Source of the DNA: an uncultured Sulfolobales archaeon
GTDB taxonomy: Archaea; Thermoproteota; Thermoprotei_A; Sulfolobales; Desulfurococcaceae
Length of the DNA: 64,000 bases
Assembly (NCBI GenBank): GCA_938045475.1
Contig: CALIML010000008.1
Span: 1 to 64,000 of the forward strand
Direction: 5' to 3'
Positions 3,925 to 35,926 of this stretch are shown piece after piece; within the stretch, counting starts at the first letter, position 1, and every line of letters starts with the position of its first letter. Both the position numbers and the translations under genes were made by a program. The notes below the pieces were generated by a model. That model was given only the letters and a program-made list of their open reading frames with translations. It searched no databases and was not told where the DNA came from.

Positions 3925-5103
3925 AGGCGGAACGTGTGGCTGGTTTACGCGCATTTCTCTATAAGCTATGAAGGACCCGATTAATGCAACTGTTGTTGAA
4001 GCAATCAATTGAATGATGTCTAACTCGCTGTGTTTTACTGAGTGGGCTATTAACATGAGTCTTGATTCAGCAACTCCCACATTATATATAGCGTCGCCGA
4101 GCACTGCTATGCGAGTGAAAATGCTTGGAGCACTGAGTTTAATTACTTTGCTAAGCCCTTTATTCGTGTAGAGCAGTGTAGCTGCAATACTGACGTCTTC
4201 CCCACTAGATCGCTGGTAGCCCGTCAGTGCTGTATAGCCGCTTGCTACATGTAAATCAAGTGGAGTAAAGCCCTCGGGCACTTGAATGTAATTAATTGCA
4301 CTTACAGCCCCTAAGCTGCTTGCTTTAATAACTCCATAGCTTCCATCAGCTTCCTTAACGAGGATCAATAGATCATCTCCCACTGATTTAACTGATATAA
4401 GATCGGTTGCACTAATAGCTTTGCTCCACAGCACTTCCCCAGATCCGTCTAGGCATGCGACTGTCATTTCAGCTTCCGAGCTCTTCCCTACAACGTAGAT
4501 TAAGCCACTGCCCGTAGTAGCTGCTTTAAGAGCTACTTCACTGCCTTCAGAGCCCCATGTAATGCTCCAGTAAGCATTGCCGTCATTTACGTTAATTCTT
4601 GAAGCATATAGCTCAAGGCCCCTCCCCACGCTGTATCGCGTGCCCACTATTACTATTGATCCATCTACGTACGGCGATACATCAAAGGCCCAGACGACCT
4701 CACTTAACGTCAAGCTCTTATTGCTCACTAAGCCTCCGTAGGAGCTATAGCTGAGCAAAGTCACTTCATGTCTACTGGAGCTTATTAGCGCTACAGAGAT
4801 CTCAGTGCCTCTGGCAATAAGTCCAGCTAAGTGAGATTCATTTAGAATACCCAAGGAGTTTCTCCAAGCAATATCTCCGTCAAAAGAGATCTTGTATAAG
4901 CTGACTCCAGCTGAATCGCTTAATGCAAGTACGTATATTGAGTCGTGGTATATATCTAAGTCCACTGGCGCTTCACTAAAGTAGTGCTTAGCCCACTTCT
5001 CACTAATGACTATTGCTCCAGCTGACATGACGTTGAGTATGGCTAGCGCAGCACCAGCTATTGCAAGAGCTATACCTATTGCAGCGAAAACCCTGTTGGC
5101 CAA
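3922..5103 (-). CDS. Membrane-anchored extracellular beta-propeller-like protein
   Basis: This 393-residue protein has a hydrophobic N-terminal segment (about 5-33), a long middle part of short beta-strand repeats, and a second hydrophobic segment near the C-terminus (about 362-380) followed by a short charged tail. The middle repeats patterns such as 'GLIYVVGKSS', 'GSIVIVGTR' and 'YTALTGYQRSSGED', typical of PQQ- or kelch-like propellers, with several N-x-S/T sites. It should face the outside of the cell. No catalytic residues are apparent. Function is unknown; a sensory or adhesive role is possible. Its 3' end touches transposon debris. Confidence 0.7.
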   Translation of the reverse strand: MANRVFAAIGIALAIAGAALAILNVMSAGAIVISEKWAKHYFSEAPVDLDIYHDSIYVLALSDSAGVSLYKISFDGDIAWRNSLGILNESHLAGLIARGTEISVALISSSRHEVTLLSYSSYGGLVSNKSLTLSEVVWAFDVSPYVDGSIVIVGTRYSVGRGLELYASRINVNDGNAYWSITWGSEGSEVALKAATTGSGLIYVVGKSSEAEMTVACLDGSGEVLWSKAISATDLISVKSVGDDLLILVKEADGSYGVIKASSLGAVSAINYIQVPEGFTPLDLHVASGYTALTGYQRSSGEDVSIAATLLYTNKGLSKVIKLSAPSIFTRIAVLGDAIYNVGVAESRLMLIAHSVKHSELDIIQLIASTTVALIGSFIAYREMRVNQPHVPP

Positions 5104-5259
5104 ACCCTACACCAATGCCCCCCGCACGTTAATTCAAACTCTAGCTTCTTGGCTAAATAAGTTTGTTTACGTATAGAGAGGATATATTTGATGCAGGTCT
5201 TCCACCGTTGACTCTGCAGTTATTTTATGAGCATTATTTAACTAGTGGTTAATGAGAAG

Positions 5260-6429
5260 TCAACTGAGTTCACTCTCTATGGCATCAACTACTCTACTTA
5301 CGCTTGCTTCACGCCCGAAGTCCCTGAGCGCCTTAGCTAATGTTGTATAAGCTATTAGTAGGTGAGTTCTAGATGCCTGGACCCCCATGTGGCCCACTCT
5401 AATTACTCTTCCCTGAAGCCTGCCCCAGCTGCCGGCTAGCATTACTCCATACTTCCTCCATAAATGATTCCTCAGCTCTCCATCATTAATACCGCTTGGA
5501 GTTAGGAATGCTGTAACTGTTGGAGAGGAGTCATTTATTGAAGCTGGGAATGGAGTCAGTCCCAGTGCTTCAAGAGCCCTCCAGGAAGCTCTCCTAGCCA
5601 TTAAGTGTCTTCCGTAAACACTATCTAGTCCTTCATTAAACAATGCTTTTAAAGCTTCTTCAAGTGCATATGTTAGTACATCACTCATGGTGTAGGGGAA
5701 TACTCCATGAGTGTCGAGGGACTCCCTCCACATCCTTAAGTTTAAGTATAAGCCGCTGTAATTTACTCTGTCGATAGCCTCCCATGCAGCCTCACTAATA
5801 GCTATTATAGTTAGTCCAGCTGGAGCGTTTAATACCTTCTGAGATCCACCGATCAATACATCTACTCCATTCTTATCGAACTCTATTGGTACTCCACCAA
5901 TACTTGATACAGCGTCAACTACAAGTAGAGCTCCATGTTCTTTAACTACTTTCGCTACACTCCGTAAATCATTCAATATAGCTGATGGAGTGTCGCAGTG
6001 AACTAGAGTTACAATGCTTACATCCTTACTGCGCTCCAGCTCTCTGTCAATAGTGCTTGCTTCAATGCTTCTCCTCCACTCTTCGTCACTAGCTCCAACC
6101 AATATTGGGGCGCCGCGATACGCCTTTACAATGTCTGCAAATCCTTCTCCAAAAACTCCATTGGCTACAACAAGCACTCTATCCCCAGGTTTAACTAAGT
6201 TAGCTATGGCTGCTTCAAGCCCCAATATAGCTTCACCAACCATAATGTAGATCGAGGCGCTGCGGGCTCCCAGAAGATCCCTTAACATGCTCCTAACCTT
6301 ATCGTACTCACTGAGAAACCCTGGATCTAGATCAGGGTTAGTAGTCTCTCTAGCTAATGCCATTCTAACGCAGTGAGGGATCCCTGTAGGGCCGGGCGTA
6401 AGTATAAAACGATCTGTATACAGCTTCAA
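5260..6429 (-). CDS. Class V aminotransferase (alanine/serine-glyoxylate aminotransferase family)
   Basis: This is a 389-residue PLP enzyme of fold type I. TPGPT lies near the N-terminus (about 11-15). The cofactor aspartate is in VVDAVSSIGG and the Schiff-base lysine in GGSQKVLNAPAG. Relatives transfer the amino group of serine or alanine to glyoxylate or pyruvate. It differs from the paralogue at 48248-49396: where that protein has HNETSTG, this one has HCDTPSA. The two probably use different substrates. It stands alone on the minus strand, divergent from the hexose transporter, and the shared intergenic region holds a 12-bp inverted repeat. The exact substrate is not predictable. Confidence 0.85.
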   Translation of the reverse strand: MKLYTDRFILTPGPTGIPHCVRMALARETTNPDLDPGFLSEYDKVRSMLRDLLGARSASIYIMVGEAILGLEAAIANLVKPGDRVLVVANGVFGEGFADIVKAYRGAPILVGASDEEWRRSIEASTIDRELERSKDVSIVTLVHCDTPSAILNDLRSVAKVVKEHGALLVVDAVSSIGGVPIEFDKNGVDVLIGGSQKVLNAPAGLTIIAISEAAWEAIDRVNYSGLYLNLRMWRESLDTHGVFPYTMSDVLTYALEEALKALFNEGLDSVYGRHLMARRASWRALEALGLTPFPASINDSSPTVTAFLTPSGINDGELRNHLWRKYGVMLAGSWGRLQGRVIRVGHMGVQASRTHLLIAYTTLAKALRDFGREASVSRVVDAIESELS

Positions 6430-6456
6430 TTAAGCTCCCGGACATAGCTTAAATGC

Positions 6457-6499
6457 TAAGACGTGCTTAAATACGTTACATAAAGTGAAGCACGTCTTA
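6457..6499. promoter_or_regulatory. 12-bp inverted repeat, candidate operator
   Basis: TAAGACGTGCTT (6457-6468) and AAGCACGTCTTA (6488-6499) form perfect arms 19 bp apart. The spacer contains a TATA-like ATTTAAG on the minus strand (about 6465-6471), at a suitable distance from the aminotransferase start at 6429. The arrangement resembles a dimeric repressor site covering that promoter. It may also influence the divergent hexose transporter genes. Confidence 0.5.
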
Positions 6500-6590
6500 A
6501 CTAAGTTGCTTCATCAGTAACACTGATTTCAGCCTTATTGATGCATGAAGCATAAGTATGTTTCCATAAAGTATATTTACGTCAATAGAA

Positions 6591-6598
6591 TATATAAT
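6591..6598 (+). promoter_or_regulatory. TATA box of the hexose ABC operon
   Basis: TATATAAT is centred about 26 bp upstream of the ATG at 6620, which makes the transcript effectively leaderless. This decides the start of the binding-protein gene. The ATG at 6545 lies upstream of the box. Confidence 0.6.
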
Positions 6599-6619
6599 AA
6601 CTCTGTGCGACAATATAAT

Positions 6620-7951
6620 ATGGTGGTTAATATGGCTATCAAGACTACATATGCAGTTGCTATAGCTGTCATAGTTACTGCAGCACTTGTAGGCGGAGTG
6701 TTGTATTACTATTATACAACAGTGCTTGCTAGACCGAGAGCTAACTTACTTGAAATATATCATTGGTGGACTTCAGGCGGCGAGAAAGCTGCTATAGATG
6801 CATTAGTAGCAGTATTTCAAGGGAAGTACCCCGATGTAGGTGTTATACAAAGCCCTGTTGCAGGCGGTGCGGGTTACGTCATGAAGGCAGTAATGAAGGC
6901 TATGGTTGCAGCTGGTGAAGCTCCCGATGCATTTCAAGTCCATGCAGGCTATGAAATGAAGCCATACGTGGATGCTGGCTACTTAGACCCCATAGACGAT
7001 CTATGGTCACAGCAGGGCTGGGAAGAGGTGTTTCCACCAGTTGTAAAAGACATGGTTAAGTGGGGAGGACATTACTACGCTGTCCCAGTAAACATTCATA
7101 GAGCTAACGTACTATGGTACAATAAGCACATGCTCGATCGATATGGCATAGATCCTGCAACGCTAGAGACTTGGGATGGCTTCTTCGAGGCTTGCGAAAA
7201 ACTTAGGGCTGCCGGTATAAGCCATCCAATAGCCATGGGAGGCATAGGTAAGTGGGAGATAGCTCATGCCCTTGAACAAATATTCGTCAGTCAAGGCATA
7301 GAGTTCTACCAAGACTTAATAAATGGAAAGTTAACGGATCCCAATGACCCAAGGCTTGTAAGAGCTCTTCAAATATTCCACAGGTACTTAGATTACGTAA
7401 ACCCAGACTATGCCACTTTAACGTGGGATCAGGCGGTGGCAAGAGTCATTAGAGGTGAAGCAGCTTTCACAATCATGGGCGACTGGGCTAACGGAGAATT
7501 TCTAGTAGCTGGAAAAGTATTTGGCGTAGACTATGGCGCCATACCAGCACCGGGGACTAAGGGTATATACGTCCTTGTAGTTGACTGCTTTGAACGTCCT
7601 AGAGGAGCTAAGCACCCAGAGAACTCCATTAAGTGGCTAATAGTAGTTGGATCTAAAGAGGGGCAGGACGCATTTAACCCAATAAAGGGCTCAATACCGG
7701 CTAGATTGGATGCAGATATAGCGAAGTACGGTCCGTATCAGCAACAGGCTATAAATGACTTTAGGAACGCTAGATACATGGCTCCAAGCATAGTTCATGG
7801 AAGTGGGGCGCCGGAAAAATTTGCAAGCGCTTTTAACGACATATCCTCGGCCTTTGCATCAAATAGGGATATATCAGCTGCGTGTAGAGGCATTATTGAC
7901 GCAATCAATGCTGCTAGGGATGAGTATGTTAAAGAGTGGAGGCTTTATTAA
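6620..7951 (+). CDS. Glucose/mannose-type sugar-binding protein of an ABC importer
   Basis: This cell-surface sugar-binding protein (CUT1 family) has about 443 residues from the ATG at 6620, chosen because a TATA box lies 26 bp upstream. It has a short N-terminus and one hydrophobic anchor, so it is probably tethered to the membrane. Segments such as IYHWWTSGGE, FQVHAGYEM, VPVNIHRANVLWY, FTIMGDWANG and GSKEGQDAFNPIKGS follow, almost motif for motif, the glucose/mannose-binding protein of Thermus thermophilus as I remember it. The sugar-contacting Trp, His and Asn positions appear kept. Two permeases and an ATPase follow. The closeness to a bacterial family hints at inter-domain transfer. Confidence 0.88.
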   Translation: MVVNMAIKTTYAVAIAVIVTAALVGGVLYYYYTTVLARPRANLLEIYHWWTSGGEKAAIDALVAVFQGKYPDVGVIQSPVAGGAGYVMKAVMKAMVAAGEAPDAFQVHAGYEMKPYVDAGYLDPIDDLWSQQGWEEVFPPVVKDMVKWGGHYYAVPVNIHRANVLWYNKHMLDRYGIDPATLETWDGFFEACEKLRAAGISHPIAMGGIGKWEIAHALEQIFVSQGIEFYQDLINGKLTDPNDPRLVRALQIFHRYLDYVNPDYATLTWDQAVARVIRGEAAFTIMGDWANGEFLVAGKVFGVDYGAIPAPGTKGIYVLVVDCFERPRGAKHPENSIKWLIVVGSKEGQDAFNPIKGSIPARLDADIAKYGPYQQQAINDFRNARYMAPSIVHGSGAPEKFASAFNDISSAFASNRDISAACRGIIDAINAARDEYVKEWRLY

Positions 7952-8003
7952 ATGAAATAAGCTTTTTTATCCATATAATTCATAAAGTTTTCATGGGAGA
8001 GAC

Positions 8004-8882
8004 ATGGGTTCACACAGTTTAAATCCTTTAGCGATCATCCTTATAGCCTCACTAGCTACAGCGTTCTTCTTCATATATGGCTTAATAGGCTGGAACATGC
8101 TCTTATCCTTTACAAAATCCATGGGCTTGATCACGAGCTACGAACTAGCCGGCTTAGCACAATACGTAAAGGCGGGATCGGATGCAGTCTTCCATGTATC
8201 GCTTAAGAACAATCTAATGCTAATAACTCTCTTCATCCCTGGAAGCATAGGGCTTGGGCTGCTGTTAGCAGTACTGCTCGACATAGCAGGCGGTAAAGGG
8301 GAGGCTTTATATAGGACCATTTACCTTCTTCCATTCTCCCTATCATTCGTTATAACGGCATCCATGTGGGCATGGATGTACAATTACTCATATGGCGTAA
8401 TTAACACTTTGCTAACAGCCTTGCTGGGCAGAGCCTTTCAAATAAACTGGCTTGGAGATCCTAATGTTGCTCTCTATAGCGTAATCCTAGCACTCATCTG
8501 GCAGTTCTCAGGATATACGTCCTTAGTGTTTCTCGCAGGGATAAAGTCTGTACCGGAGTCGCAGATAAATGCGGCGAAAATTGATGGAGCTTCTACACTC
8601 CAATTATACACTAAGATAATTATTCCACAGTTGAAGCCATGGATTTTGTCTGCGTTCGTAGTACTAATGGTGTTTGCATTGAAGGCTTTCGACTTCATCT
8701 ATGTATTGACGAATGGAGGGCCCGGCGTCTCTACATACGTACTCGCACTATTGATGTTCAGGAGGGCGTTCTTTGAAACCGACTTCCCTTATGGAGCGGC
8801 GCTAGCTACAATACTCTTTACAATGGTTATTAGTGTAGTAGTGCCATACCTATTGTTATCTTCGAGGAGGGAGGAGAAGTAA
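8004..8882 (+). CDS. Sugar ABC transporter permease, MalF type
   Basis: This 292-residue integral membrane protein has six predicted hydrophobic segments and the cytoplasmic EAA loop (INAAKIDGAS...IIIPQLKP, about 188-211) that docks on the ATPase. It forms the membrane pore with the next permease and belongs to the CUT1 (MalF/UgpA) group. GGGAGAG lies just before the ATG. The gene follows the binding-protein gene after 52 bp, a gap that holds a short T-run which might attenuate expression. Its last base is shared with the start of the next gene. Confidence 0.92.
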   Translation: MGSHSLNPLAIILIASLATAFFFIYGLIGWNMLLSFTKSMGLITSYELAGLAQYVKAGSDAVFHVSLKNNLMLITLFIPGSIGLGLLLAVLLDIAGGKGEALYRTIYLLPFSLSFVITASMWAWMYNYSYGVINTLLTALLGRAFQINWLGDPNVALYSVILALIWQFSGYTSLVFLAGIKSVPESQINAAKIDGASTLQLYTKIIIPQLKPWILSAFVVLMVFALKAFDFIYVLTNGGPGVSTYVLALLMFRRAFFETDFPYGAALATILFTMVISVVVPYLLLSSRREEK

Positions 8883-9697
8883 TGTTGAATAAAGCAAGCC
8901 TTGTAGTATACACAGCTTTAACTATCCTTGCGTTCATGTACTTCCTACCTTTTTGGAGTGTGCTTACAACTGCGCTTAAGAGTGATATAGAGGTGAGAAT
9001 GACTATACCTATAGTCCCGCCATCTAATCCTACGACGACCCCCCTACTTAAGGCTTTTGAATTAATGAAGCAAGGCTTGGTGAATAGCTTGCTTTTCACA
9101 AGCTTTGCCACTATATTCTCGAGCTTAATAGGCTCCGTTAACGGCTTTATGCTTTCAAAAGTGAAATTCAAGCACTCTGATACAGTGTTCCTTGCATTAA
9201 GCGTTGGAATATTTATTCCCTATCACGCGGTAGTAATTCCATTGATAACCGTTACTAGTAAAGCCGGCATCTATAACTCCATTCTCGGAATGACTATTGT
9301 TCACACAACATACGGCATACCTATATGCACTTTGTTCTTCAAGAACTTCTTCGATGAACTCCCCGAGAGCATATTGAATGCAGCTAGAATAGATGGAGCA
9401 GGCGACTTCACTATTTATAAAAGGATCGCGCTTCCACTCTCATGGCCTGCATTCATAATTACTGGAGTATTCCAGTTCACAAGCATATGGAATGACTTCT
9501 TGTTTGGCGTAGTACTAACTAAAGGCAGCAATCAGCCTGCCAGCGTTGTACTAGCTAACCTCCTTGGAACAACGGCTGCTGAATGGAATGTACAAATGGC
9601 CGGTACATTCATATATGCTTTACCGGTGGTAGCAGTATACCTCCTCCTTGGCAAATACTTAATTAGAGGCTACCTCGCTGGAGCTATTAAGGGGTAA
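8882..9697 (+). CDS. Sugar ABC transporter permease, MalG type
   Basis: This 271-residue membrane protein is the second half of the pore. Its EAA loop reads LNAARIDGAG...RIALPLSWP (about 166-186). The ATG overlaps the stop codon of the upstream permease (TAATG), indicating translational coupling. Its stop is followed after a few bases by the ATPase gene. Family members import mono- or oligosaccharides. Given the binding protein, glucose or mannose is the likely cargo. Confidence 0.92.
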   Translation: MLNKASLVVYTALTILAFMYFLPFWSVLTTALKSDIEVRMTIPIVPPSNPTTTPLLKAFELMKQGLVNSLLFTSFATIFSSLIGSVNGFMLSKVKFKHSDTVFLALSVGIFIPYHAVVIPLITVTSKAGIYNSILGMTIVHTTYGIPICTLFFKNFFDELPESILNAARIDGAGDFTIYKRIALPLSWPAFIITGVFQFTSIWNDFLFGVVLTKGSNQPASVVLANLLGTTAAEWNVQMAGTFIYALPVVAVYLLLGKYLIRGYLAGAIKG

Positions 9698-9703
9698 TGC
9701 AGT

Positions 9704-10807
9704 GTGGTGAACGTATACATTAAGGACTTATGCAAGAAGTTTGGAAGAGTAGAGGCTGTAAAGGACTTCGATCTAGAGGTAAAGAGCGGTGAGTTCTTCG
9801 TCTTACTGGGTCCAAGTGGGAGCGGAAAATCAACTGTATTAAATTGCATAGCTGGGATCATTAAGCCAACTAAGGGGGAGATATGGATTAGTGATAAACT
9901 CGTTGTTTCAACTGAAAAAGGATTATACGTCCCCCCGCAAGAGAGGAACTTAGGCATGGTGTTCCAGGACTTCGCTCTCTACCCCCATATGAGCGTGTTT
10001 GACAACATAACATTTCCCCTAAAGGTTAGAAAATTCCCTGAGAATGAAATAAGAATGAGGGCTGAGCAAATAGCTGGAATTTTGGGCATAAAACACTTAC
10101 TGAATAGAAAGCCTGGGCAGTTAAGCGGTGGTGAAAAACAAAGAGTCGGCCTAGCGAGAGCTTTAATTAGGAATCCCCCTCTGCTTCTAATGGACGAACC
10201 ATTGTCAAACTTGGATGCCAAGCTAAGAGTCCTAATGAGAGTTGAGCTAAAGAGAATACAGCGCGAGTTTAAAACTACAGTTATTTACGTAACGCATGAC
10301 CAAGTTGAAGCACTTAGCATGGGTGATAGAATAGGAATTATGTCTGCTGGAACACTACAGCAAGTAGGCGAGCCAACGGAGATCTATGAGAAACCCATTA
10401 ATACTTTTGTAGCGGGATTCATAGGCAGTCCGCCAATGAACATGTTTAACTGCACTCTAACTGATTTAGAGCGTGGAGTACTTGAATGCGATTTCGGGAA
10501 ATACGTGCTGCCTAAATCAGTGACTGAAGCAATTTTTATGAAAGCTGTTAAAGAACTCATTTTAGGAGTAAGGCCGGAGCATGTGAAAGTAATAAGTAGC
10601 CAGATGCCTGGAGCTATAGAGGCAAAGCTTATCCATGTAGAAAAGCTTGGCAGAGAACTAATAGCTCATCTAAAGATCGAGGAGTCAAAAATTACATCAA
10701 TAATATCGCCAGAAGTTTACAGCAGTCTTAAGGAAACCGTGTGGATAATCTTTGACGAAAATAAAATCCATGTATTCAATAAAAGTAGTGGACAAGTAAT
10801 AGTATGA
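9704..10807 (+). CDS. Sugar ABC transporter ATPase, MalK/GlcV family
   Basis: This 367-residue ATPase powers the hexose importer. It has Walker A GPSGSGKST (about 37-45), Q-loop MVFQDFALYP, signature LSGGEKQRV, Walker B LLLMDEP with D-loop SNLD, and H-loop YVTHDQVEAL. All catalytic elements are intact, so it presumably works as a homodimer, in contrast to the two ATPases at 24-26 kb. The C-terminal third is the OB-type regulatory domain of MalK proteins. Two GTG codons (9704 and 9707) can serve as start, preceded by GGGGT. Confidence 0.94.
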   Translation: MVNVYIKDLCKKFGRVEAVKDFDLEVKSGEFFVLLGPSGSGKSTVLNCIAGIIKPTKGEIWISDKLVVSTEKGLYVPPQERNLGMVFQDFALYPHMSVFDNITFPLKVRKFPENEIRMRAEQIAGILGIKHLLNRKPGQLSGGEKQRVGLARALIRNPPLLLMDEPLSNLDAKLRVLMRVELKRIQREFKTTVIYVTHDQVEALSMGDRIGIMSAGTLQQVGEPTEIYEKPINTFVAGFIGSPPMNMFNCTLTDLERGVLECDFGKYVLPKSVTEAIFMKAVKELILGVRPEHVKVISSQMPGAIEAKLIHVEKLGRELIAHLKIEESKITSIISPEVYSSLKETVWIIFDENKIHVFNKSSGQVIV

Positions 10808-14286: not shown

Positions 14287-16146
14287 CTACTCCTCATCTA
14301 TTCCAGCGGCCTCTGGAACGAAGTATTCTCCGCGTGCTTTCTGAAGCCTATCTAAGTATGAGCCGGGCTTATTGACTCTAGGCCTCCCAGTAACAGGATC
14401 TCTTCTCACCGTCACCTCTAATTCGCTAAGCAGCTTATTCAATCCACTGCTTATTGACACTGGTTTAGATGCATAACCTCTTACCCCAGGCTCGCCGTAG
14501 AAAACCATGACTTTATCGGCTGCAAACGCCTGAAGCATTAGATCGTGTTCTACGACGAATGCTACAGCGCTTCTATCTTCAACCACTCTCCTGATCACTC
14601 TAGAGACATTTATCCTCTCTTCAACATCTAAGTAAGCTGAAGGCTCATCGAGTAAGTATAGCTTAGCTTCTTTAGCTAGCGATACAGCTATAGCTAACTT
14701 CTGTAGCTCCCCTCCGCTGAGCTCGTCAACTCTCCTGTCGAACAGCTTCCTTAACCCAAGCTTTGATACAAGCTCTACGTAAAGCCATGATGATGGCTCA
14801 ACAACGCTTGAATTAGCCTTCTTGATGTTACCCACTACTGTTTCTTCACTGAATATCTTTGGAGAAAGCTCTTGGGGCTTAATGCTAATGGATTCAACCG
14901 ATACCATTACTCCACCCTCACTGGGTTCAACTTCTCCTCCAAGAATTTTAATGAAAGTGGTCTTGCCTATTCCATTCGGGCCAATTATCCCCACTACTTC
15001 ACCAGGCACCGCCTCCCCCTCATCAGCCGCTAAGCTAAAGCTCGAACCATATTGCTTAACTATCCTCGACCACTTGACTGCTGGGTAAACAAGATCTCTT
15101 TTAACCTGTTGACCCATGCCCACCGGCAGCCTAAATACTATGGCCTCCTTCCTAATCCTCATGTTTTCCGATGGAAGGTATCCATGCAAGTAGTTATTTA
15201 TCCCTGCCCTGACTCCATATGGATTAGATACTACTCCATAAACTCCTGGCTCACCGAATATTACAACAACGTTATCTGAAATGTAGTCGAGAACCGTTAA
15301 GTCGTGCTCAACTACTACTACATAGCTTTTACTAAGATCTATGAACTCCCTTATGGCTCTGGAGACCCTTAATCTCTCCCTTATATCTAAGTAGCTACAG
15401 GGTTCGTCAAAGAAGTATGCGTCAGCATCCCTCATTATGGCTGCAGAGATCAGTACTTTCTGCAACTCCCCTCCACTGAGTTCATTAATTCTTCTATCAA
15501 CAACATTACTTAAGCTCATAGCAGTTATTAAATCCCCTAAAACACCTCTTTCATCTGCCTTAGCAAGCAGCTCCTTCACTCTCCCCTTAAGAAGCCTTCT
15601 AGCAGCCTCAATGTATTGAGGCTTAACAACAGCTCTAATCCTTCCATCACTTAAGTCCTTTAAGTAATTCTGCAGCTCTGTGCCGCGGAACGCTCTTACT
15701 ACTTCACTCCAGTCGGGGGACTCGCTGTATCTACCAAGATTGGGTTTCAGCTGTCCACTCAGGATCTTTATTGATGTAGTTTTACCACTGCCGTTTCTGC
15801 CGATAACTCCTAAAACTCTCCCCCTTCTAACTATCGGCAGATTATATAGCTTAAACATGTTCTCTCCATAGCGATGCACAGAGCTTTTCTCAAGCTCTTC
15901 AGGTAAGTTGACGATGGATATTGCTGAGTAAGGACATTTCCTCACGCATATTCCACAGCCTATGCATACATCTTCACGAATTACGGCAAATTTACTGTCT
16001 TCAGATAACTCAATTGCTTTAACAGGCCCCCTACGCTTATTCACTGGGCAAAACCTTATGCACTCCAGGCTACATTTACTCGGCTTACAGTAGTCTCTAT
16101 CGATTACTGCTACTCTAGTCAATTCACTGCACCCAGCGTGCTTCAT
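14287..16146 (-). CDS. ABCE1/RLI, ribosome-recycling iron-sulfur ATPase
   Basis: This protein splits ribosomes after termination. It has an N-terminal pair of [4Fe-4S] motifs (CxxxxC..CxxxCP and CIGCGICVRKCP) and two ABC cassettes: Walker A GRNGSGKT and GPNGIGKT, two LSGGELQK signatures, Walker B in YFFDEP and YLLDEP, and the hinge between. The frame stays open 40 codons further up (to 16266), but that part has no counterpart in the family. TATA-like elements (TTTTATAC near 16190 and ATTTAATA near 16178) lie just before the ATG at 16146. I therefore take 16146 as start, giving 619 residues (family about 600). Confidence 0.94.
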   Translation of the reverse strand: MKHAGCSELTRVAVIDRDYCKPSKCSLECIRFCPVNKRRGPVKAIELSEDSKFAVIREDVCIGCGICVRKCPYSAISIVNLPEELEKSSVHRYGENMFKLYNLPIVRRGRVLGVIGRNGSGKTTSIKILSGQLKPNLGRYSESPDWSEVVRAFRGTELQNYLKDLSDGRIRAVVKPQYIEAARRLLKGRVKELLAKADERGVLGDLITAMSLSNVVDRRINELSGGELQKVLISAAIMRDADAYFFDEPCSYLDIRERLRVSRAIREFIDLSKSYVVVVEHDLTVLDYISDNVVVIFGEPGVYGVVSNPYGVRAGINNYLHGYLPSENMRIRKEAIVFRLPVGMGQQVKRDLVYPAVKWSRIVKQYGSSFSLAADEGEAVPGEVVGIIGPNGIGKTTFIKILGGEVEPSEGGVMVSVESISIKPQELSPKIFSEETVVGNIKKANSSVVEPSSWLYVELVSKLGLRKLFDRRVDELSGGELQKLAIAVSLAKEAKLYLLDEPSAYLDVEERINVSRVIRRVVEDRSAVAFVVEHDLMLQAFAADKVMVFYGEPGVRGYASKPVSISSGLNKLLSELEVTVRRDPVTGRPRVNKPGSYLDRLQKARGEYFVPEAAGIDEE

Positions 16147-16269
16147 TAATGATAGTAAGTTATGCAAACGCTTATTAAATTCGCAGTGAGTATAAAAGAA
16201 CAGATGATGAGTGGCGACAGCGCGGAGTACGTGAAGAGCCAGAACCTCCTGATGCCTAAGCTCCATTAA

Positions 16270-20725: not shown

Positions 20726-22132
20726 CTACTTCCTCTCCATTTCCTGAACTATCTTCCATTGCTCAGCCGCAATAATGTCTAAGGCATCATCAGGGTTTAT
20801 CTCTTTGGCCACAGCTTTATTGAAGTAAAGTTGCTGGACTTCAAGCATTCTGCCGTAGTAAGGTATGTTCCAGAAGTCCTTAGCGTATTGAATAGCCTCT
20901 TTATATGCCCTAGCCCATGGCTTGGAGTTTATGAACTCGGGGCTTTCAGCCACAGATATTCTGCCTGTAAACCCTACTCTTATGGAGTACTCCTTATATG
21001 CAACTGTGTAGAACCACTTTAGGAATAACTTTGCCTCCTCCTTATACCTAGAGTAGGCACTTATTACTAGTGGCTGGCCGCCCAGCATCGTGTATCTTAA
21101 GCCATTGTGGTGCGGTTGTACAGCTGCTTCACTTGCATTCCAAACCTTTGAAGTAGCTGGATCATAGAATGCCCCTGACATGGAGGCCCACATAGCTGTC
21201 ATAGCTACCTTGCCTTCAGCGTAGAGAGAGATCACTTTATCGTAATCAAATGTCGGTGCGCCGGGAGGCATGTAGTTAGTTAACTCTACGAAGAACCCCA
21301 AAGACTCCTTAGCTTGAGTACTATTGATATACCCTATTGGGTTGCGCGTAACGGGATCCCATAGCTCAGCTCCCCAGCTCCAGAATACACTAAGGTAGAA
21401 GCAGGAGATGAAGTCGTAATCCCTTGATAGGACTAGCGCTATGCCATAGAAGTCTTCATCCAGGATTTTGCCTGCTAGAACCTCGCCCTTCTTCCTAGTG
21501 AAGAACTCAGCTATATCCTTTAATTGAACCCAATCAATGTCCATCCATTCTTCAAGAGTCGTAGGTAAGTCATATCCATACTTCTGCCTAAATGCAGCTC
21601 TCTCATCCGGGTGAGTGAAGAGGTCTTTTCTAAAGTGGAGGAGAGGCGTTGCATCAGCAGTTCCAGGTATGCCTACGTAATTATCGCTTCCCTGCGGATA
21701 AGCTGTGTAGAAGTATATTAAGTTAGGGTAGGTGTCATTAAGGACTGCATACCTCATCTCAGGGTCGTTTAAGATGAAGTCCTTTAGCGATATGATGTGC
21801 CCTCCTTCCCAGAGCTCCCCTAGCCACTGACTATCTGCAAATATTATGTCTGCCTCAGGACTCCTAGCCGTGACTACGCTAGTGACCCTCGTGTAATAAG
21901 TCCCCCATGGAGTGACGTCAAGCTTAACGTACACCTTATAACCAAGCTTCTCCTCAGCATATGTAGTAAAGTCTTTAGACATTTCTTCAAGAACAACTGC
22001 GGGCTCCCACTCGGGGCTCAATATGACTAGTGTAACTTCCTTAGCAGGGGGTTTATACGTGGCGAAGTATATCGCAATAGCTGCTACCACAACTATTACT
22101 AGAACTATAGCTAAAACAGTAGTAGTCTTCAA
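20726..22132 (-). CDS. Carbohydrate/polyol ABC transporter substrate-binding protein
   Basis: This 468-residue extracellular binding protein has a single N-terminal hydrophobic segment (about 4-25) as anchor or signal, then the two-lobed family-1 fold with WEPAVVLEEM near the start and many aromatic residues for sugar stacking. It is divergent from two permeases and two ATPases that begin at 22308, and surely belongs to that importer. The start is TTG, preceded by GGAGGTG at 8 bases, with a TATA-like CTTAAATATT near 22175. The ligand cannot be read from sequence. The type of ATPases suggests glycerol, another polyol or a sugar. Confidence 0.87.
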   Translation of the reverse strand: MKTTTVLAIVLVIVVVAAIAIYFATYKPPAKEVTLVILSPEWEPAVVLEEMSKDFTTYAEEKLGYKVYVKLDVTPWGTYYTRVTSVVTARSPEADIIFADSQWLGELWEGGHIISLKDFILNDPEMRYAVLNDTYPNLIYFYTAYPQGSDNYVGIPGTADATPLLHFRKDLFTHPDERAAFRQKYGYDLPTTLEEWMDIDWVQLKDIAEFFTRKKGEVLAGKILDEDFYGIALVLSRDYDFISCFYLSVFWSWGAELWDPVTRNPIGYINSTQAKESLGFFVELTNYMPPGAPTFDYDKVISLYAEGKVAMTAMWASMSGAFYDPATSKVWNASEAAVQPHHNGLRYTMLGGQPLVISAYSRYKEEAKLFLKWFYTVAYKEYSIRVGFTGRISVAESPEFINSKPWARAYKEAIQYAKDFWNIPYYGRMLEVQQLYFNKAVAKEINPDDALDIIAAEQWKIVQEMERK

Positions 22133-22271
22133 CTTACATACACCTCCAACTAATACCTTAACGATGCGGAATATTTAAGCATTATGTAGAGTACTGACTT
22201 AACTATACTCTATGTTCACATACTAGCACTATGATTAATTATAATTAATATATACTTAAAAATAAATAGCA

Positions 22272-22293
22272 ACAGTAAGTGTTACAGTAAGTG
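22272..22293. promoter_or_regulatory. Tandem 10-bp direct repeat at the permease promoter
   Basis: ACAGTAAGTG occurs twice, at 22272-22281 and 22284-22293, with a 12-bp period. A TATA-like TTAATATATAC lies at about 22245-22255, so the repeats cover the expected transcription start and lie just before the GTG at 22308. A repressor site is the simplest reading. Confidence 0.5.
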
Positions 22294-22307
22294 CGGGGTG
22301 TTTAGCT

Positions 22308-23225
22308 GTGCGTAAGCCGTTCAGTAAAGAGTTTTTTAATAAAGGGAGGATGCTAAACCCTTGGCTAATGATACTGCCGGCATTCCTTATACTCCTGGTA
22401 TTCAACATATTCCCCCTCCTCTGGAGCTTAGGGATATCATTTTACAGGTTCTCAGTAATAATTAGGGAGGCACCTAGGTACGTAGGGGGGTTGAACTACA
22501 TTAATGTCATTACTAGCGCTGAAGCTTGGGATAGGATCATTAGAACAGGCATTTACTTAGCGTATGCACTATCGCTTCAATTTGGGCTGGGGTTACTGCT
22601 CTCGCTCCTACTATTCGAGGATTTTAAGGGTAAGAGAATGCTAATAACTTTATTCACGATACCTTTAATGATAGCTCCTGTAGCTTCCTCGCTGTTCTTC
22701 AGGTACTTATTCGACGAGAACCTTGGGCCCGTCAACAACTTCTTAAAGTCTATAGCAGGCTACGGGCCTCTGTGGTTTAGCTCAAATATGAGTCCGCTTG
22801 GAATACCTTACGCCCTCCTTACCGTAGTGCTGGTCGAGACCTGGATATGGACTCCGTTCGTAATGTTTCTCTTAACAGCCGGCATGAGCTCCATTCCTCA
22901 AGACTTAATAGAGCAAAGCAGAGTGGATTCCATAAAGTTTAGACACAAGTTTAGATACGTAATCCTGCCGTACATTAAGCCAATGATAGCTCTAGCATTG
23001 ATCTTTAGATTCATGGATTCCCTTAAGACATTCGACTCCATCTATATACTGACTGCAGGAGGTCCTGGAGCTACAACTGAACTCATATCAGTCTACATAT
23101 ACAGGGTCGCCTTTGAGAGATGGGACTTTGGATCAGCTACAGCTCTCAGCTACTTAATACTGGTCATCGTTATATTCATGACTAACGTATTCATGAGGTA
23201 CATACTCGGTGGTGAAAGGTCTTGA
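22308..23225 (+). CDS. ABC transporter permease (CUT1, GlpP/UgpA-like)
   Basis: This 305-residue membrane protein has six hydrophobic segments. Its EAA loop is IEQSRVDSIKFRHKFRYVIL (about 203-222), in which the usual A-x-D-G appears as SRVDS, a degenerate form. It starts the five-gene operon of permease, permease, ATPase, ATPase and small membrane protein. The GTG start has GGGGTG 8 bases upstream, and the end overlaps the next gene by 4 bases. The substrate is probably the same as that of the divergent binding protein. Confidence 0.9.
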   Translation: MRKPFSKEFFNKGRMLNPWLMILPAFLILLVFNIFPLLWSLGISFYRFSVIIREAPRYVGGLNYINVITSAEAWDRIIRTGIYLAYALSLQFGLGLLLSLLLFEDFKGKRMLITLFTIPLMIAPVASSLFFRYLFDENLGPVNNFLKSIAGYGPLWFSSNMSPLGIPYALLTVVLVETWIWTPFVMFLLTAGMSSIPQDLIEQSRVDSIKFRHKFRYVILPYIKPMIALALIFRFMDSLKTFDSIYILTAGGPGATTELISVYIYRVAFERWDFGSATALSYLILVIVIFMTNVFMRYILGGERS

Positions 23226-24070
23226 GGAAACGCAATCAATACACCACGCCATTAGTGTTATATAGAGTGAGGAAATCCCTGAAGTTCGCATTATTAATAG
23301 CTCTACTAGCAATATACCTCATACCTATATATGGGATGTTTTCACTAGCCTTTAAACCCAGGGCAGAGATCTACTCTGGGCTCTTTGAATTAACTCGAGT
23401 AACTCTCGAGAACTTTGAAGAAGCATATAGGTACGGCGCATACAGCGCTATAACGAATTCCATAATAGTAACTGTTGGAGGTGTGGCCATAGCTCTAGTA
23501 CTAGCTGTTCTAGCATCATATGCTTTCTCCAGGTTTGCTGTTAAAGGAAAGAACATATTGATGTTCTACATACTTTCAACAAGAATGATGCCTCCTATAA
23601 CGCTCATAATACCTATATTCATAATGTTCTTTAACGTAGGCCTAAAGGGAACTTACTTAGGGCTCATACTAGTCTACGCAATGATGTCCCTTCCCCTATC
23701 CATTTGGATGATAAAGAGCTTCATAGACGACATACCTAAGGACATTGATCAAGCCGCATTAGTGGACGGGCATTCAACTATGTTCATACTTTTCAAAATA
23801 ATAATACCCATGGTTATTCCAGGAATAGCTGCTTCAGCAGCTTTTGCAGCCATAATGTTGTGGAATGAATTCCTCTTTGCACTACTTTTAAGCGGCGTTG
23901 ATACAAAGCCTACATCAGTCTTACTTAGCAGCATTAGGGGGGAGAGGGGCTTTAATTGGGGTAGGGTGGCTGCAATCGAAGTAGTATACATATTGCCGAT
24001 AATAATCCTAGTGTTCTGGCTTCAAAAATACATGCTAAGGGGGCTCACGTTCGGTACTGTAAGGAGGTGA
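23222..24070 (+). CDS. ABC transporter permease (CUT1, GlpQ/MalG-like)
   Basis: This 282-residue membrane protein has six predicted helices and an intact EAA loop (DQAALVDGHS...IIIPMVIPG, about 177-200). The TTG start overlaps the stop of the first permease, a sign of coupled translation. It should pair with the upstream permease to form the channel, each contacting one of the two different ATPases encoded downstream. Its end overlaps the ribosome-binding site of the first ATPase gene. Confidence 0.91.
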   Translation: MRKRNQYTTPLVLYRVRKSLKFALLIALLAIYLIPIYGMFSLAFKPRAEIYSGLFELTRVTLENFEEAYRYGAYSAITNSIIVTVGGVAIALVLAVLASYAFSRFAVKGKNILMFYILSTRMMPPITLIIPIFIMFFNVGLKGTYLGLILVYAMMSLPLSIWMIKSFIDDIPKDIDQAALVDGHSTMFILFKIIIPMVIPGIAASAAFAAIMLWNEFLFALLLSGVDTKPTSVLLSSIRGERGFNWGRVAAIEVVYILPIIILVFWLQKYMLRGLTFGTVRR

Positions 24071-24075
24071 ATGAT

Positions 24076-25182
24076 GTGGGTAAAGACGAGTACATTATTC
24101 AAGTTGAAAAAATTGCGAAAACATACAATGGCAGAAGAGTGTTAAACGACATATCATTCGCTTTAAGAAGAGGAGAGCTACTAGCCATTCTAGGACCACC
24201 TGGATCTGGGAAGACTACGTTGCTTAAAATAATTGCTGGACTCATTAAACAGGATGCGGGCGACGTCATAATCAATGGAAGAATAGTCAATGATTTGCCG
24301 CCGTATGAGAGGGGGGTCTCCCTAGTATTTGAAACACTAGCCCTCTATCCAAACATGAGCGTTTATGAAAACATAGCGTCTCCACTAATTGCTGAGAAAA
24401 AGGACAAGGAATATATTGATAGGAGAGTGGGGGAAATATCTAGACTCCTCAAGATCGAGCATATACTCGGTAGAAAGGCCGATAAACTAAGCGGTGGAGA
24501 GAGGCAGAGAGTAGCTATAGCCAGGGCTTTAGCTAAGGAAGCAGAAATATATCTATTGGACGAGCCCCTCTCCAACCTAGATGCTAAGATACGCTATGCG
24601 CTTAGAACAGAGTTTAAGAAGCTGAAGTCGCTTCTAGGTAAGACGATAATTCTCGCTACGTCGGATCCCAGTGATGCCCTAGCGTTAGGGGACAAAGTAA
24701 TGCTTCTATTCAACGGGGCAGTAATTCAGGAGGGGCCGCCTATTGACATATATTATGCTCCGAGAAACATATCTATAGCGAGGTACTTGACTGGAAACAT
24801 ACTTAATGAAGTCTCAATATCTATCGATAGCTACGGGAAGAGCGTAAGCATGGACGTTGGACAAGAGTTCTCAATAGATCCTTATTTCCTTAAAGTACTG
24901 AGGGAAGTCGGTGAAACCTCCATTACTCTAGCGAGCTACGCTGATGGATGCATAGTAGATAAATCCGTAGAGAGCTGTTCCGGCATTAAAGTAGCGGGGG
25001 AGTTCATAGGATATGAATATAGAGGCAGCGAATACTTAGTGTATGCAAGGAAGGGTGAGAGAGTATTTAGATCTCTAAGGGCTAGCTTACCTAACGTAAC
25101 TTTTGGAGAAAGAGTGGAAGTGTGTATTCCACATACGAACGCTCTTTTGTTCAGCGGTAAGACCGGGAGTTTAATTAGGTGA
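24076..25182 (+). CDS. ABC ATPase with defective Q- and H-loops (GlpS-like)
   Basis: This MalK-family ATPase (about 368 residues) has normal Walker A GPPGSGKT, signature LSGGERQR, Walker B YLLDEP and D-loop SNLD. However, the Q-loop reads VFETLALYP (Glu for Gln) and the H-loop reads LATSDPSDAL (Ser for His). Its own ATP site should therefore hydrolyse poorly. GlpS proteins of rhizobial glycerol transporters have the same 'AT..P.EAL' form. A GTG at 24067 is possible, but AAGGAGGTGA at 24061-24070 sits ideally for the GTG at 24076, which I use. The partner is the next gene, whose defects are complementary. Confidence 0.9.
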   Translation: MGKDEYIIQVEKIAKTYNGRRVLNDISFALRRGELLAILGPPGSGKTTLLKIIAGLIKQDAGDVIINGRIVNDLPPYERGVSLVFETLALYPNMSVYENIASPLIAEKKDKEYIDRRVGEISRLLKIEHILGRKADKLSGGERQRVAIARALAKEAEIYLLDEPLSNLDAKIRYALRTEFKKLKSLLGKTIILATSDPSDALALGDKVMLLFNGAVIQEGPPIDIYYAPRNISIARYLTGNILNEVSISIDSYGKSVSMDVGQEFSIDPYFLKVLREVGETSITLASYADGCIVDKSVESCSGIKVAGEFIGYEYRGSEYLVYARKGERVFRSLRASLPNVTFGERVEVCIPHTNALLFSGKTGSLIR

Positions 25183-25188
25183 TGCAGC

Positions 25189-26298
25189 TTGGTTAGCATA
25201 AAATTAGTCGATATTTCAAAAACTTTCGGAAGCGTTGAAGCACTTAAAGACGTAAGTCTCGAGATCCGTGACGGCGAGCTATTCGCTATACTTGGACCCA
25301 GCGGCTGTGGGAAAACAACTCTGTTAAGAATAGTCGCGGGACTAGAGAAGCCTACAAAGGGAAGAGTGTACTTCGACGATATTGATGTAACCAACATACC
25401 TGCGGAAATCAGGGATGTATCGATGGTTTTTCAATTCTACGCTCTATACCCTACAACAGTCTTTAATAACATAGCCCTGCCCTTGAAGTCTAAGGGATAT
25501 TCAAGAATAGATATTGAGAAAAGAGTTAAAGAAATAGCTGAATTAGTCGGCATAGGTAAGGCATTGAACTTGCACATCGATAAACTCAATATAGCCGATA
25601 AGCAAAAAGTCGCCTTAGCTAGAGCTATGGCTAAGGAGCCGCAAGTGTACTTATTCGACGAACCTCTCACAATACTAGATCCTGTTACTAGAGTTATAAT
25701 GAGAAGTGAATTAAAGAAGCTGCAGCATAGATTGAAGCAGACAATGATATATGTAACCCACGACCAAATAGAGGCATTGACTCTAGCCGATAGAATAGCT
25801 GTAATGAATTTTGGAGTAGTTGAACAAGTAGGAACTTCGTGGGATGTCTATAATTTGCCTAATACAACTTTCGTCGGATGGTTCTTGGGGGAGCCCGGAA
25901 TGAACTTCGTTGAGATAGCCGTAGATAAGGATGATCTAAGCATAAATATAGGTTCTAAAAAGATTTTTAGAGATCCAAGCCTGGGCAAGAAGCTCCTAGA
26001 CTTAGGCTTAGAGAAAGCCCTCCTTGGCTTTAGGGCTGAGAACGTAGTCTTGGTTAAAGAAGTGCCCGGCGTACATGATCCAAATAGCATAGTTATAGAT
26101 GGCATCATTAGAGTAATTGAGTTCTTTGGAACCCACTACGTAGTTAATGTAGAAACAGAAGGATCTGAGTTTAAAGTTAAACTAAGTGTAAGTGAGTTCA
26201 ATAAATTAATGCTTGGTGAAAACGATAAAGTAAAGGCTTTAGTGAGAGTAGATAAAGTCTGCTTCTTTAACTTAGACAACAATAGGCGTGTCTTATGA
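25189..26298 (+). CDS. ABC ATPase with degenerate signature motif (GlpT-like)
   Basis: This 369-residue ATPase has intact Walker A GPSGCGKT (36-43), Q82 in MVFQFYALYP, Walker B YLFDEP (154-159) and H191 in YVTHDQIEAL. The signature LSGGQ is replaced by LNIADKQ (133-139) and the D-loop reads TILDP. This is the pattern of GlpT-type ATPases ('DEPLT.IDP', 'GMN' near residue 230). Paired with the upstream ATPase it leaves one complete composite site (its own Walker and His with the partner's LSGGE) and one dead site. The TTG start has GGTGATG upstream. The C-terminal third is the OB-type regulatory domain. Confidence 0.9.
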   Translation: MVSIKLVDISKTFGSVEALKDVSLEIRDGELFAILGPSGCGKTTLLRIVAGLEKPTKGRVYFDDIDVTNIPAEIRDVSMVFQFYALYPTTVFNNIALPLKSKGYSRIDIEKRVKEIAELVGIGKALNLHIDKLNIADKQKVALARAMAKEPQVYLFDEPLTILDPVTRVIMRSELKKLQHRLKQTMIYVTHDQIEALTLADRIAVMNFGVVEQVGTSWDVYNLPNTTFVGWFLGEPGMNFVEIAVDKDDLSINIGSKKIFRDPSLGKKLLDLGLEKALLGFRAENVVLVKEVPGVHDPNSIVIDGIIRVIEFFGTHYVVNVETEGSEFKVKLSVSEFNKLMLGENDKVKALVRVDKVCFFNLDNNRRVL

Positions 26299-26585
26299 AG
26301 GTGAGTATAGTGGTTAAACGCAGAACGATAGAGGAGCTCTTGATCATTTTAGGGATCATCGGCTTAGTGCTAACGTTTCAGCCTTTTAACATTTTAGGCT
26401 ACACTATTGGCTGGATCATGTTGCTTAGCTGTACTTTAACTTACGTGATCTTTACTTTAATTCCGCGCGGCGCTAGTTCTGGGAGAAGGCTTGTTAAAGC
26501 ATTCATTAAAACTCTATTGATAGTGCTTGCCGTCGTCGCATCATTCATAGTGCTATCCATACTGCTGACGCCTCACATAATGTAA
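26295..26585 (+). CDS. Small membrane protein of the ABC operon
   Basis: This 96-residue protein has three probable membrane segments (about 14-30, 33-54 and 70-92) and a basic first stretch. The ATG overlaps the stop of the second ATPase (ATGA), so it is part of the operon. Glycerol-type ABC operons with two ATPases in bacteria also carry a small membrane protein (DUF2160), but this one does not share its visible motifs, so I do not assign it to that family. A role as accessory subunit of the transporter is an inference from position. Confidence 0.7.
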   Translation: MKVSIVVKRRTIEELLIILGIIGLVLTFQPFNILGYTIGWIMLLSCTLTYVIFTLIPRGASSGRRLVKAFIKTLLIVLAVVASFIVLSILLTPHIM

Positions 26586-26642
26586 AGAAGGCATTAGTGT
26601 TTATATAAGCTCTTTTTGCACATATATTTTGAGGTAATAAAT

Positions 26643-27875
26643 ATGTCTAATAACTTAAATAAGCTTAGAGTGGGCTTTATTGGAGCTGGCTTCTCAGCTA
26701 AATTCCATGCGAGAGCCTTCACTATGATTAGAGATGCTGAAATAACGGCTGTATATTCAAGAACGGAGGAATCCGCGAAGAATCTGGCTGCGTTAATTGA
26801 GGGCTTGGGTTTAAGGAGGCCTAAGACTTACACCGATCTATTTGAAATGCTGAGATACAAGGAATTGGACGCTGTTTGGATCCTTCTGCCCAACAACCTC
26901 CACTTAGAGGCCACTAAAGCAGTAGTTGAAGAAGTCGCTCAAGGCAGATCTAGCGTAATTGGAGTGACTGTTGAAAAGCCCTTGGCTAGGAACTCTAATG
27001 AAGCAAATAAAATGGTTGAATTAGTTGAAAAAGCGGGGCTCCTCCACGGCTATCTTGAAAACCAAGTGTTTATGCCGTCAGTATCTAAGGGTAAGGAGAT
27101 CGTGTGGAACATTGGGGCGAAGTACTCTGGCAGACCTTATCTAGCTAGAGCAGCAGAAGAGCATGGGGGTCCTCATAGCGCTTGGTTCTGGAGGCCATCT
27201 ATTTCTGGAGGAGGAGTTCTGTTAGACATGGGGTGCCATAGCATAGAAGCTTCTAGAGAGCTACTACTTAAACCTGGGGAAGATAAGTCTCATTTAAAAC
27301 CTAAATACGTCTACGGTGAAATAGCTTTCTTGAAATGGGTGAAGGAGACTTATGTTGAAGAGTTGAGGAAGAGATTCGGCGTAGACTTTCTTAAAGAACC
27401 TGCGGAAGACTACTCATTAACTATAGTAACTTATGAAGACTCTGATGGAGCACTCGTAGTTACTGAAGCAAGGACTTCGTGGGCATTTATCGGAGCTGGG
27501 CTGAGGCTCACATTTGAAGTACTAGGGCCTGAATATAGTTTAAGCATAAACACTCTTCAACCAGAGCTATTCACGTTCATAAGCAGGAACATAAGAATAC
27601 CTCCTACAGAGGAATTCGTTGAGAAACAGAATGCTGAACAAGGATTGATGCCAGTAATACCTGATGAAGCCATCACCTATGGCTACCAAGCTGAAGACGC
27701 CCACATGGTTAAGTCCTTCGTAAATAAGAGAATGCCCTATGAGACGTGGCGCGACGGACTCTTAGTAGTTCAATTAATGATGCATTCATACTTATCGGCT
27801 GAAAAAGGCGTTAAAGTAAAGTTCGACCCCCTCCAAGTAGAGAACTACGTTCCCCCAGTAGCTAGATTAAAGTAA
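26643..27875 (+). CDS. Gfo/Idh/MocA-family NAD(P)-dependent oxidoreductase
   Basis: This dehydrogenase of sugars or cyclitols has about 410 residues. The Rossmann start reads LRVGFIGAGFSAKFHARAF. The family's EKP motif appears as TVEKPLARN (about 120), followed by a substrate-binding domain with GGGVLLDMGCHSIEA. The start at 26643 is set by GAGGT 8 bases upstream and a TTATATAA box at about 26600-26607. It follows the polyol/sugar ABC operon after a short gap with its own promoter, so it probably oxidises the imported compound; inositol- or sugar-like substrates are candidates. Confidence 0.9.
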   Translation: MSNNLNKLRVGFIGAGFSAKFHARAFTMIRDAEITAVYSRTEESAKNLAALIEGLGLRRPKTYTDLFEMLRYKELDAVWILLPNNLHLEATKAVVEEVAQGRSSVIGVTVEKPLARNSNEANKMVELVEKAGLLHGYLENQVFMPSVSKGKEIVWNIGAKYSGRPYLARAAEEHGGPHSAWFWRPSISGGGVLLDMGCHSIEASRELLLKPGEDKSHLKPKYVYGEIAFLKWVKETYVEELRKRFGVDFLKEPAEDYSLTIVTYEDSDGALVVTEARTSWAFIGAGLRLTFEVLGPEYSLSINTLQPELFTFISRNIRIPPTEEFVEKQNAEQGLMPVIPDEAITYGYQAEDAHMVKSFVNKRMPYETWRDGLLVVQLMMHSYLSAEKGVKVKFDPLQVENYVPPVARLK

Positions 27876-35797: not shown

Positions 35798-35926
35798 GGC
35801 CCGACCCGGCCATAGCGGCTGGGCAACACCCGGTCCCATATCGAACCCGGAAGTTAAGCCAGCTGCGTTGGGGCTAGCTGTGAGATCCGCGAGGTCTCGC
35901 AGCTGCCTCAAGCCGGGATCGGGCCT
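35798..35926 (+). rRNA. rrf: 5S ribosomal RNA
   Basis: The sequence folds as a 5S RNA. The terminal helix is made by GGCCCGA (35798) and TCGGGCC (ends 35925). The conserved CCCGGTCCCATATCGAACC and GAAGTTAAGCC form loops B and C. The arms are GC-rich, as in thermophiles. The length of about 128 is normal. No 16S or 23S gene is near, so 5S is transcribed alone, as in many Thermoproteota. A T-run (CTTTTT, about 35949) may end the transcript. Confidence 0.95.

Follow-up and report, generated by a model that had tools for sequence, protein, structure and literature searches.

The symmetric ABC motor of the textbooks is MalK, for which it has long been asked how many of the two ATP sites must fire in each transport cycle. 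In the ABC dimer the subunits lie head-to-tail, and the Walker A motif and the Q- and H-loops of each subunit face the signature motif of its partner (PMC7756269). Heterodimeric exporters with a degenerate site include TM287/288, TAP, CFTR, and Pdr5 (PMC7756269). Among importers, one degenerate ATP site is described for the fused RbsA/NupO systems (PMC11466899), and both sites of the heterodimeric importer DppD/DppF hydrolyze ATP when DppA is present (PMC12136057). The GlpSTPQUV operon has been described from Rhizobium leguminosarum (PMC7912956). On inspection of the two bacterial Glp ATPases, GlpS was found to have an altered Walker A motif (GPTLSGKTS) and the H-loop YATTEP with LSGGQ intact, and GlpT to have the signature LTADQKQ with the Gln and His of the Q- and H-loops intact. 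In the open-license literature we found no account of a degenerate ATP site in GlpS/GlpT or in any other CUT1 importer, which is weak evidence of absence. In this report, we follow up a sequence-only reading of an archaeal importer with two unequal ATPases. Its statement that such asymmetry is known in exporters and less so in importers is a fair one, though the fused RbsA/NupO importers already show it (PMC11466899).

Results

The window analyzed here is a stretch of 64,000 nucleotides (C8:1-64000) from a 1.29 Mb draft genome of an uncultured Sulfolobales archaeon. An importer cluster of seven genes is located at 20726-27875, with the gene for the solute-binding protein divergent from the other six. 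This gene (20726-22132, minus strand) encodes an extracellular solute-binding protein of 468 residues (Pfam SBP_bac_1, E = 4e-23) that is kept in six other genomes. The genes on the plus strand encode, in order, permease A of the MalF/UgpA type (22308-23225, 305 residues; BPD_transp_1, E = 1e-10), which is conserved in relatives; permease B of the MalG/UgpE type (23222-24070, 282 residues; BPD_transp_1, E = 1e-17); ATPase 1 (24067-25182, GTG start, 371 residues; Pfam ABC_tran, E = 8e-35); ATPase 2 (25189-26298, TTG start, 369 residues; Pfam ABC_tran, E = 1e-29); a small membrane protein of 96 residues (26295-26585) with no match in Pfam or NCBIfam; and a GFO/IDH/MocA-family dehydrogenase (26616-27875; Pfam E = 2e-18). 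Because neighboring genes overlap, or almost do so, as far as the small-protein gene, these would be expected to form a single transcript. The importer belongs to the CUT1 or MalK type, as it combines an SBP_bac_1 binding protein and two BPD_transp_1 permeases with MalK/UgpC-type ATPases that have the C-terminal domain. A canonical CUT1 importer with one ATPase is present in the same window at 6545-10807 (a binding protein, two permeases, and a MalK with VFQ, LSGGE, and VTHDQ) and provides a natural internal control. The window also holds a two-domain ATPase of the ABCE1 type that carries iron-sulfur motifs (14287-16266, read by eye), which supports the origin of the DNA from an archaeon, and a 5S rRNA gene (35808-35914; Rfam RF00001, 57.5 bits).

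The residues of ATPase 1 are numbered from the GTG at 24067, the start that yields the "longer frame" numbering of the sequence-only reading; the GTG at 24076 is internal to the gene. The Walker A motif of ATPase 1 (GPPGSGKTT, residues 43-51) is intact, the signature LSGGERQ (residues 141-147) is kept, and the Walker B motif IYLLDE (residues 161-166) includes the catalytic Glu. The Q-loop reads VFETL, where Glu89 (codon GAA, 24331-24333, plus strand) replaces Gln, and the H-loop reads LATSDP, where Ser199 (codon TCG, 24661-24663, plus strand) replaces His. In ATPase 2 the Walker A motif (GPSGCGKTT, at residue 36) and the Walker B motif (VYLFDE) are intact, Q82 is kept in the Q-loop VFQFY, and H191 is kept in the H-loop YVTHDQ. 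The signature of ATPase 2 is the degenerate LNIADKQ (residues 133-139; 25585-25605, plus strand) in place of LSGGQ. This direct reading bears out, residue by residue, the earlier description of an ATPase 1 that keeps LSGGE and has lost the Q-loop Gln (to Glu89) and the H-loop His (to Ser), and likewise that of an ATPase 2 with Q82, H191, and LNIADKQ. The missing residues do not reappear at shifted positions: neither Gln nor His occurs closer than about 10 residues to the lost Q- and H-loop positions of ATPase 1, and the neighborhood of the ATPase 2 signature contains no Gly-Gly. Because the Walker A motif and the Q- and H-loops of ATPase 1 face the signature of ATPase 2, the three lesions together affect a single composite site and leave the other complete, which is the complementary arrangement that had been claimed.

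The same cluster occurs in six other genomes (G001, G006, G008, G018, G026, and G029). The ATPases of this ortholog group are 50-88% identical, and the lesion positions are lost in seven of seven. All ATPase 1 orthologs have Glu at the Q-loop position and LSGGE, with Ser in the H-loop, or Pro in G008. The ATPase 2 signature is L/I-S/N-V/I-A/G-D/E-KQ throughout. For the two closest genomes, dN/dS was found to be 0.14 for ATPase 1 and 0.10 for ATPase 2, indicating purifying selection. The lesions are neither decay nor sequencing error nor chance. The dehydrogenase gene is conserved with the transporter, apart from L042, where it has been relocated beside the gene for the binding protein. Near one ortholog cluster (L038, 15173-16828) is a fused two-domain ATPase in the style of the RbsA/BMP-family importers, which has complementary lesions of its own (one half reads LSLGLRQ, the other GVEGNGQVE and NQ).

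Loci were obtained from whole-genome searches within the phylum and from a scan of GTDB contigs, and every adjacent pair of CUT1-type ATPases was extracted. The 63 distinct adjacent pairs comprise 54 lopsided pairs and 9 in which both sites are intact; since resemblance to lopsided ATPases was the basis for collecting the loci, and since the pairs are interrelated, 54 is a count of sequences rather than a frequency or a number of independent events. All nine intact pairs are bacterial. Of the lopsided pairs, 32 come from archaea and 22, of the GlpS/GlpT type, from bacteria. In all but one of the 54 lopsided pairs, both subunits contribute lesions to a single composite site. In these 53, the partner that keeps the signature shows one or more of three losses, namely of the H-loop His (replaced by S, T, P, or F), of the Q-loop Gln (replaced by E), and of part of Walker A, and the other partner has lost the signature and kept everything else. 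The remaining pair (L217) has lost a signature alone. None of the 63 pairs has lesions in both composite sites, and the catalytic Glu is present in every one. As judged from these motifs, the one-sided pattern is widespread in MalK-type importers. The census provides a simple sequence rule for spotting obligate ATPase pairs that are now annotated as UgpC or as generic ATP-binding proteins.

The set also includes 115 distinct unpaired ATPases. A lesion of any kind was seen in only eight of these, and no lone CUT1 ATPase with a lost signature was found. Two of the eight belong to Glp pairs that the length filter had missed, five are fused or from other families, and one is a lone CUT1 ATPase from Aerophobetes (L132, 6989-8104) with Glu for the Q-loop Gln and with the signature and His intact. 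The L217 pair (5072-9349) is intermediate: one ATPase reads LTPGEAQ, and the other, whose Walker A begins with Ala, keeps the Q-loop Gln and the H-loop His (YATHDE). The genome of the window itself has a second lopsided pair of another type (L001, 8986-11314; contig C1 of G000, at about 32-34 kb), in which Q is replaced by E with the His intact and the partner reads LGISEQQ; the pair is accompanied by separate permeases and by a binding protein of about 540-570 residues.

Permease B of the window falls in a clade (support 96/92) with archaeal operons of other families (L213-L220) and with bacterial two-ATPase operons (L084-L098) whose ATPases are both canonical; some distant rows of this tree have very long branches, and it was used for the local clade only. 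The scores for permease A and the binding protein are far higher against the same group, in agreement with the permease B tree. The binding protein and permeases of L213-L220 are roughly 37-48% identical to those of the window, with the binding proteins of L213-type operons at about 41%. We define this group as the small-protein lineage of two-ATPase CUT1 importers, to which the window importer belongs by its place in the permease B clade, by the relationship of its binding protein, and by its A3-family small membrane protein. With the archaeal profile alone, homologs of the small protein were detected next to the bacterial pairs (E = 1e-7 to 3e-3). Homologs also occur in the archaeal L213 type (E of about 1e-12 to 1e-14), and positions with R, E, QP, T, and P are common to the family. 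The family has no Pfam model and has so far been seen only beside two-ATPase CUT1 importers (window 26295-26585, L213-L220, L084-L098, and L107); it is possible that it constitutes a dedicated subunit of the importer. The small protein does not fit the GlpU type: it has no DUF2160 match, the profile comparison gave a probability of ≤0.2%, and its matches are to the small proteins of this other lineage. GlpU from R. leguminosarum itself matches DUF2160 with E = 7e-36.

In a tree of 135 ATPase rows, GlpS is joined by ATPase 1 of the window and GlpT by ATPase 2 (support 98* and 99*), and the same groupings were obtained from 77 rows with the motif columns masked (100/98 and 100/95). When further rows were added, the deep branches opened up and the grouping with GlpS/GlpT became weak, and our earlier impression of firmly resolved deep nodes was dropped. 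Thus, the placement of the two ATPases with GlpS and GlpT that the sequence-only reading had led us to look for is seen in two trees and is weaker with wider sampling. In the archaeal group II (L055, L056, L174, and L177) the two ATPases are adjacent in the trees, as after a separate duplication.

The AU test for shared origins was applied to groups that were named after the first tree had been seen. A single origin of all signature-lost ATPases was rejected (p = 0.0027), as was the placement of the Glp-type signature-lost ATPases together with those of group II (p = 0.0036) or group III (p = 0.037). A single origin of the ATPase 1 types of the Glp type and group II was not rejected (p = 0.117). 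Separately, a single clade of the window and L213-type ATPase 2 with the bacterial partner "a" was rejected (p = 1.7e-7). Erosion of the asymmetry in place from a bacterial canonical pair is thereby rejected for ATPase 2, but not for ATPase 1 (p = 0.115).

Discussion

These tests make more than one origin of lopsidedness likely, although the deep ATPase branches are unstable. Since the clade of ATPase 2 with the bacterial partner is rejected, the ATPases and the permeases have different histories, and as read from the trees, ATPase pairs have been exchanged or independently duplicated within the permease lineage. We tentatively propose, at a little under an even likelihood, that one-sided site loss evolved repeatedly and always in complementary form, that ATPase pairs moved between permease lineages, and that the small protein is a dedicated subunit of heterodimeric CUT1 importers. 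On the same tentative footing, one permease lineage would contain intact pairs in bacteria, a loss of the signature alone in L217, and lopsided pairs in the window and other archaea. These canonical, half-lopsided, and lopsided states form a set for comparison and not a demonstrated line of descent.

The ATPase pair alone may have descended together with GlpS/GlpT and later been combined with permeases of another lineage. The conflict between the two smaller ATPase trees and the permease B tree argues for this course of events, as does the difference in history between ATPases and permeases, but the deep ATPase nodes are unstable and the long branches may attract one another. We regard this history as a serious possibility that falls somewhat short of an even chance.

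It is improbable, by comparison, that the operon in its entirety descends from a common ancestor with the bacterial GlpSTPQ-type glycerol transporter and represents a divergent archaeal form of it. The ATPase groupings and the lesion rule are common to both, but the permease B tree and the scores for permease A and the binding protein put the remaining operon in another lineage, and the ATPase grouping is weak with wider sampling. The binding protein matches GlpV with an E-value of only about 1e-8, and a DUF2160 protein is absent. Neither glycerol kinase nor glycerol-3-phosphate dehydrogenase is encoded next to the window importer, whereas both are linked in L044 and L045. The resemblance to GlpS/GlpT that had been claimed thus stands for the ATPases (two adjacent CUT1 genes, one product with the signature kept and the His lost, the other with Gln and His kept and the signature lost) and not for the binding protein, permeases, small protein, or neighbors. 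Even the ATPases differ, in that the window has the additional Q-loop Glu and an intact Walker A. A better archaeal candidate for a Glp-type system is the operon of G170 (L082, 9108-17171), whose ATPases (38-40% identical), permeases (35-40%), and binding protein (30% to GlpV) are closest to bacterial GlpSTPQV and which has an FGGY kinase nearby. From its sequence this operon is a candidate importer of glycerol or a polyol. For the window importer, glycerol appears an unlikely substrate; because the GFO/IDH/MocA dehydrogenase stays with the operon, the substrate is probably a sugar, polyol, or sugar acid.

We consider it highly probable that the window encodes a CUT1 importer for a sugar or polyol, driven by an obligate heterodimer with one hydrolytic site and one site that binds ATP without hydrolyzing it. 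ATPases 1 and 2 would form the heterodimer. One site, composed of Walker A/B, Q82, and H191 of ATPase 2 and LSGGE of ATPase 1, is complete and would hydrolyze ATP. The other, composed of Walker A/B of ATPase 1, lacking Q and H, and LNIADKQ of ATPase 2, is missing three elements. Since its Walker A and its Walker B with the catalytic Glu are intact, this second site probably still binds ATP and would clamp the dimer structurally with no hydrolysis. One ATP would then be spent per cycle, at the site of ATPase 2. This proposal for binding, hydrolysis, and stoichiometry draws on analogy with the exporters (PMC7756269) and on the near-null MalK H192R (PMC6222333). In that homodimer the H-loop change leaves <2% of the ATPase activity (PMC6222333), and for this reason ATPase 1 alone should be inactive. 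Among solved structures, a search by sequence gave MalK-type chains as the best matches and none from a lopsided CUT1 importer. One bad subunit is reportedly enough to cripple the maltose transporter. This indicates that a single defective site is not tolerated in the homodimer, so that some compensation must exist in the window importer. The Glu at the Q-loop position could retain some coordination of metal or water.

Each ATPase might instead be homodimeric by itself, with the two serving the permeases alternately. Both are full length, and some CUT1 ATPases serve several permeases, but a homodimer of ATPase 1 would be without Q and His in both sites, a homodimer of ATPase 2 would be without both signatures, and the pairing rule holds without exception in the 54 lopsided pairs; we find this arrangement very unlikely. 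Decay of either or both ATPases, with the transporter on its way to loss, is scarcely credible, for although catalytic residues have been lost, the frames are open, dN/dS is 0.10-0.14, and the substituted positions are identical across seven genomes.

Comparison with Known Systems

The window importer shares its families of binding protein, permease, and MalK-type ATPase with C-terminal regulatory domain with MalFGK2, UgpBAEC, and GlcSTUV, in which a single ATPase gene supplies both ATP sites and the sites are identical. The window binding protein, permease B, and small protein have their nearest bacterial relatives in two-ATPase CUT1 importers such as L084, L085, L089, and L098. As in the window, L084 and L098 have a GFO/IDH/MocA dehydrogenase in the operon, but both ATPases of all four are canonical (LSGGD/LSGGE, with Q and His present), and L084 and L089, unlike the window, encode DAK-type kinases. 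Close MalK relatives with one dead site, relatives with intact pairs (L084 and L085), and the loss of the signature alone in L217 thus form a natural set, and swaps of motifs between them would test what makes a dead site tolerable, or necessary, in an importer.

DppD/DppF is likewise an importer with two different ATPases, but with two working sites. The RbsA/NupO systems import sugars or nucleosides with one degenerate ATP site, but they belong to another subfamily (CUT2), consist of one fused chain, and have lost the Walker A lysine; the window importer, with its ATPases in two separate genes, is not of the RbsA type. With the exporters it has in common one consensus and one degenerate composite site, and the Pdr5 signature LNVEQ is similar to LNIADKQ. 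In the exporters the degenerate site has often lost its catalytic Glu, whereas this residue is kept in every CUT1 pair of our census. Lopsided sites are known from exporters and from fused importers of the RbsA type, and here they recur as a rule among the MalK-type pairs of the census.
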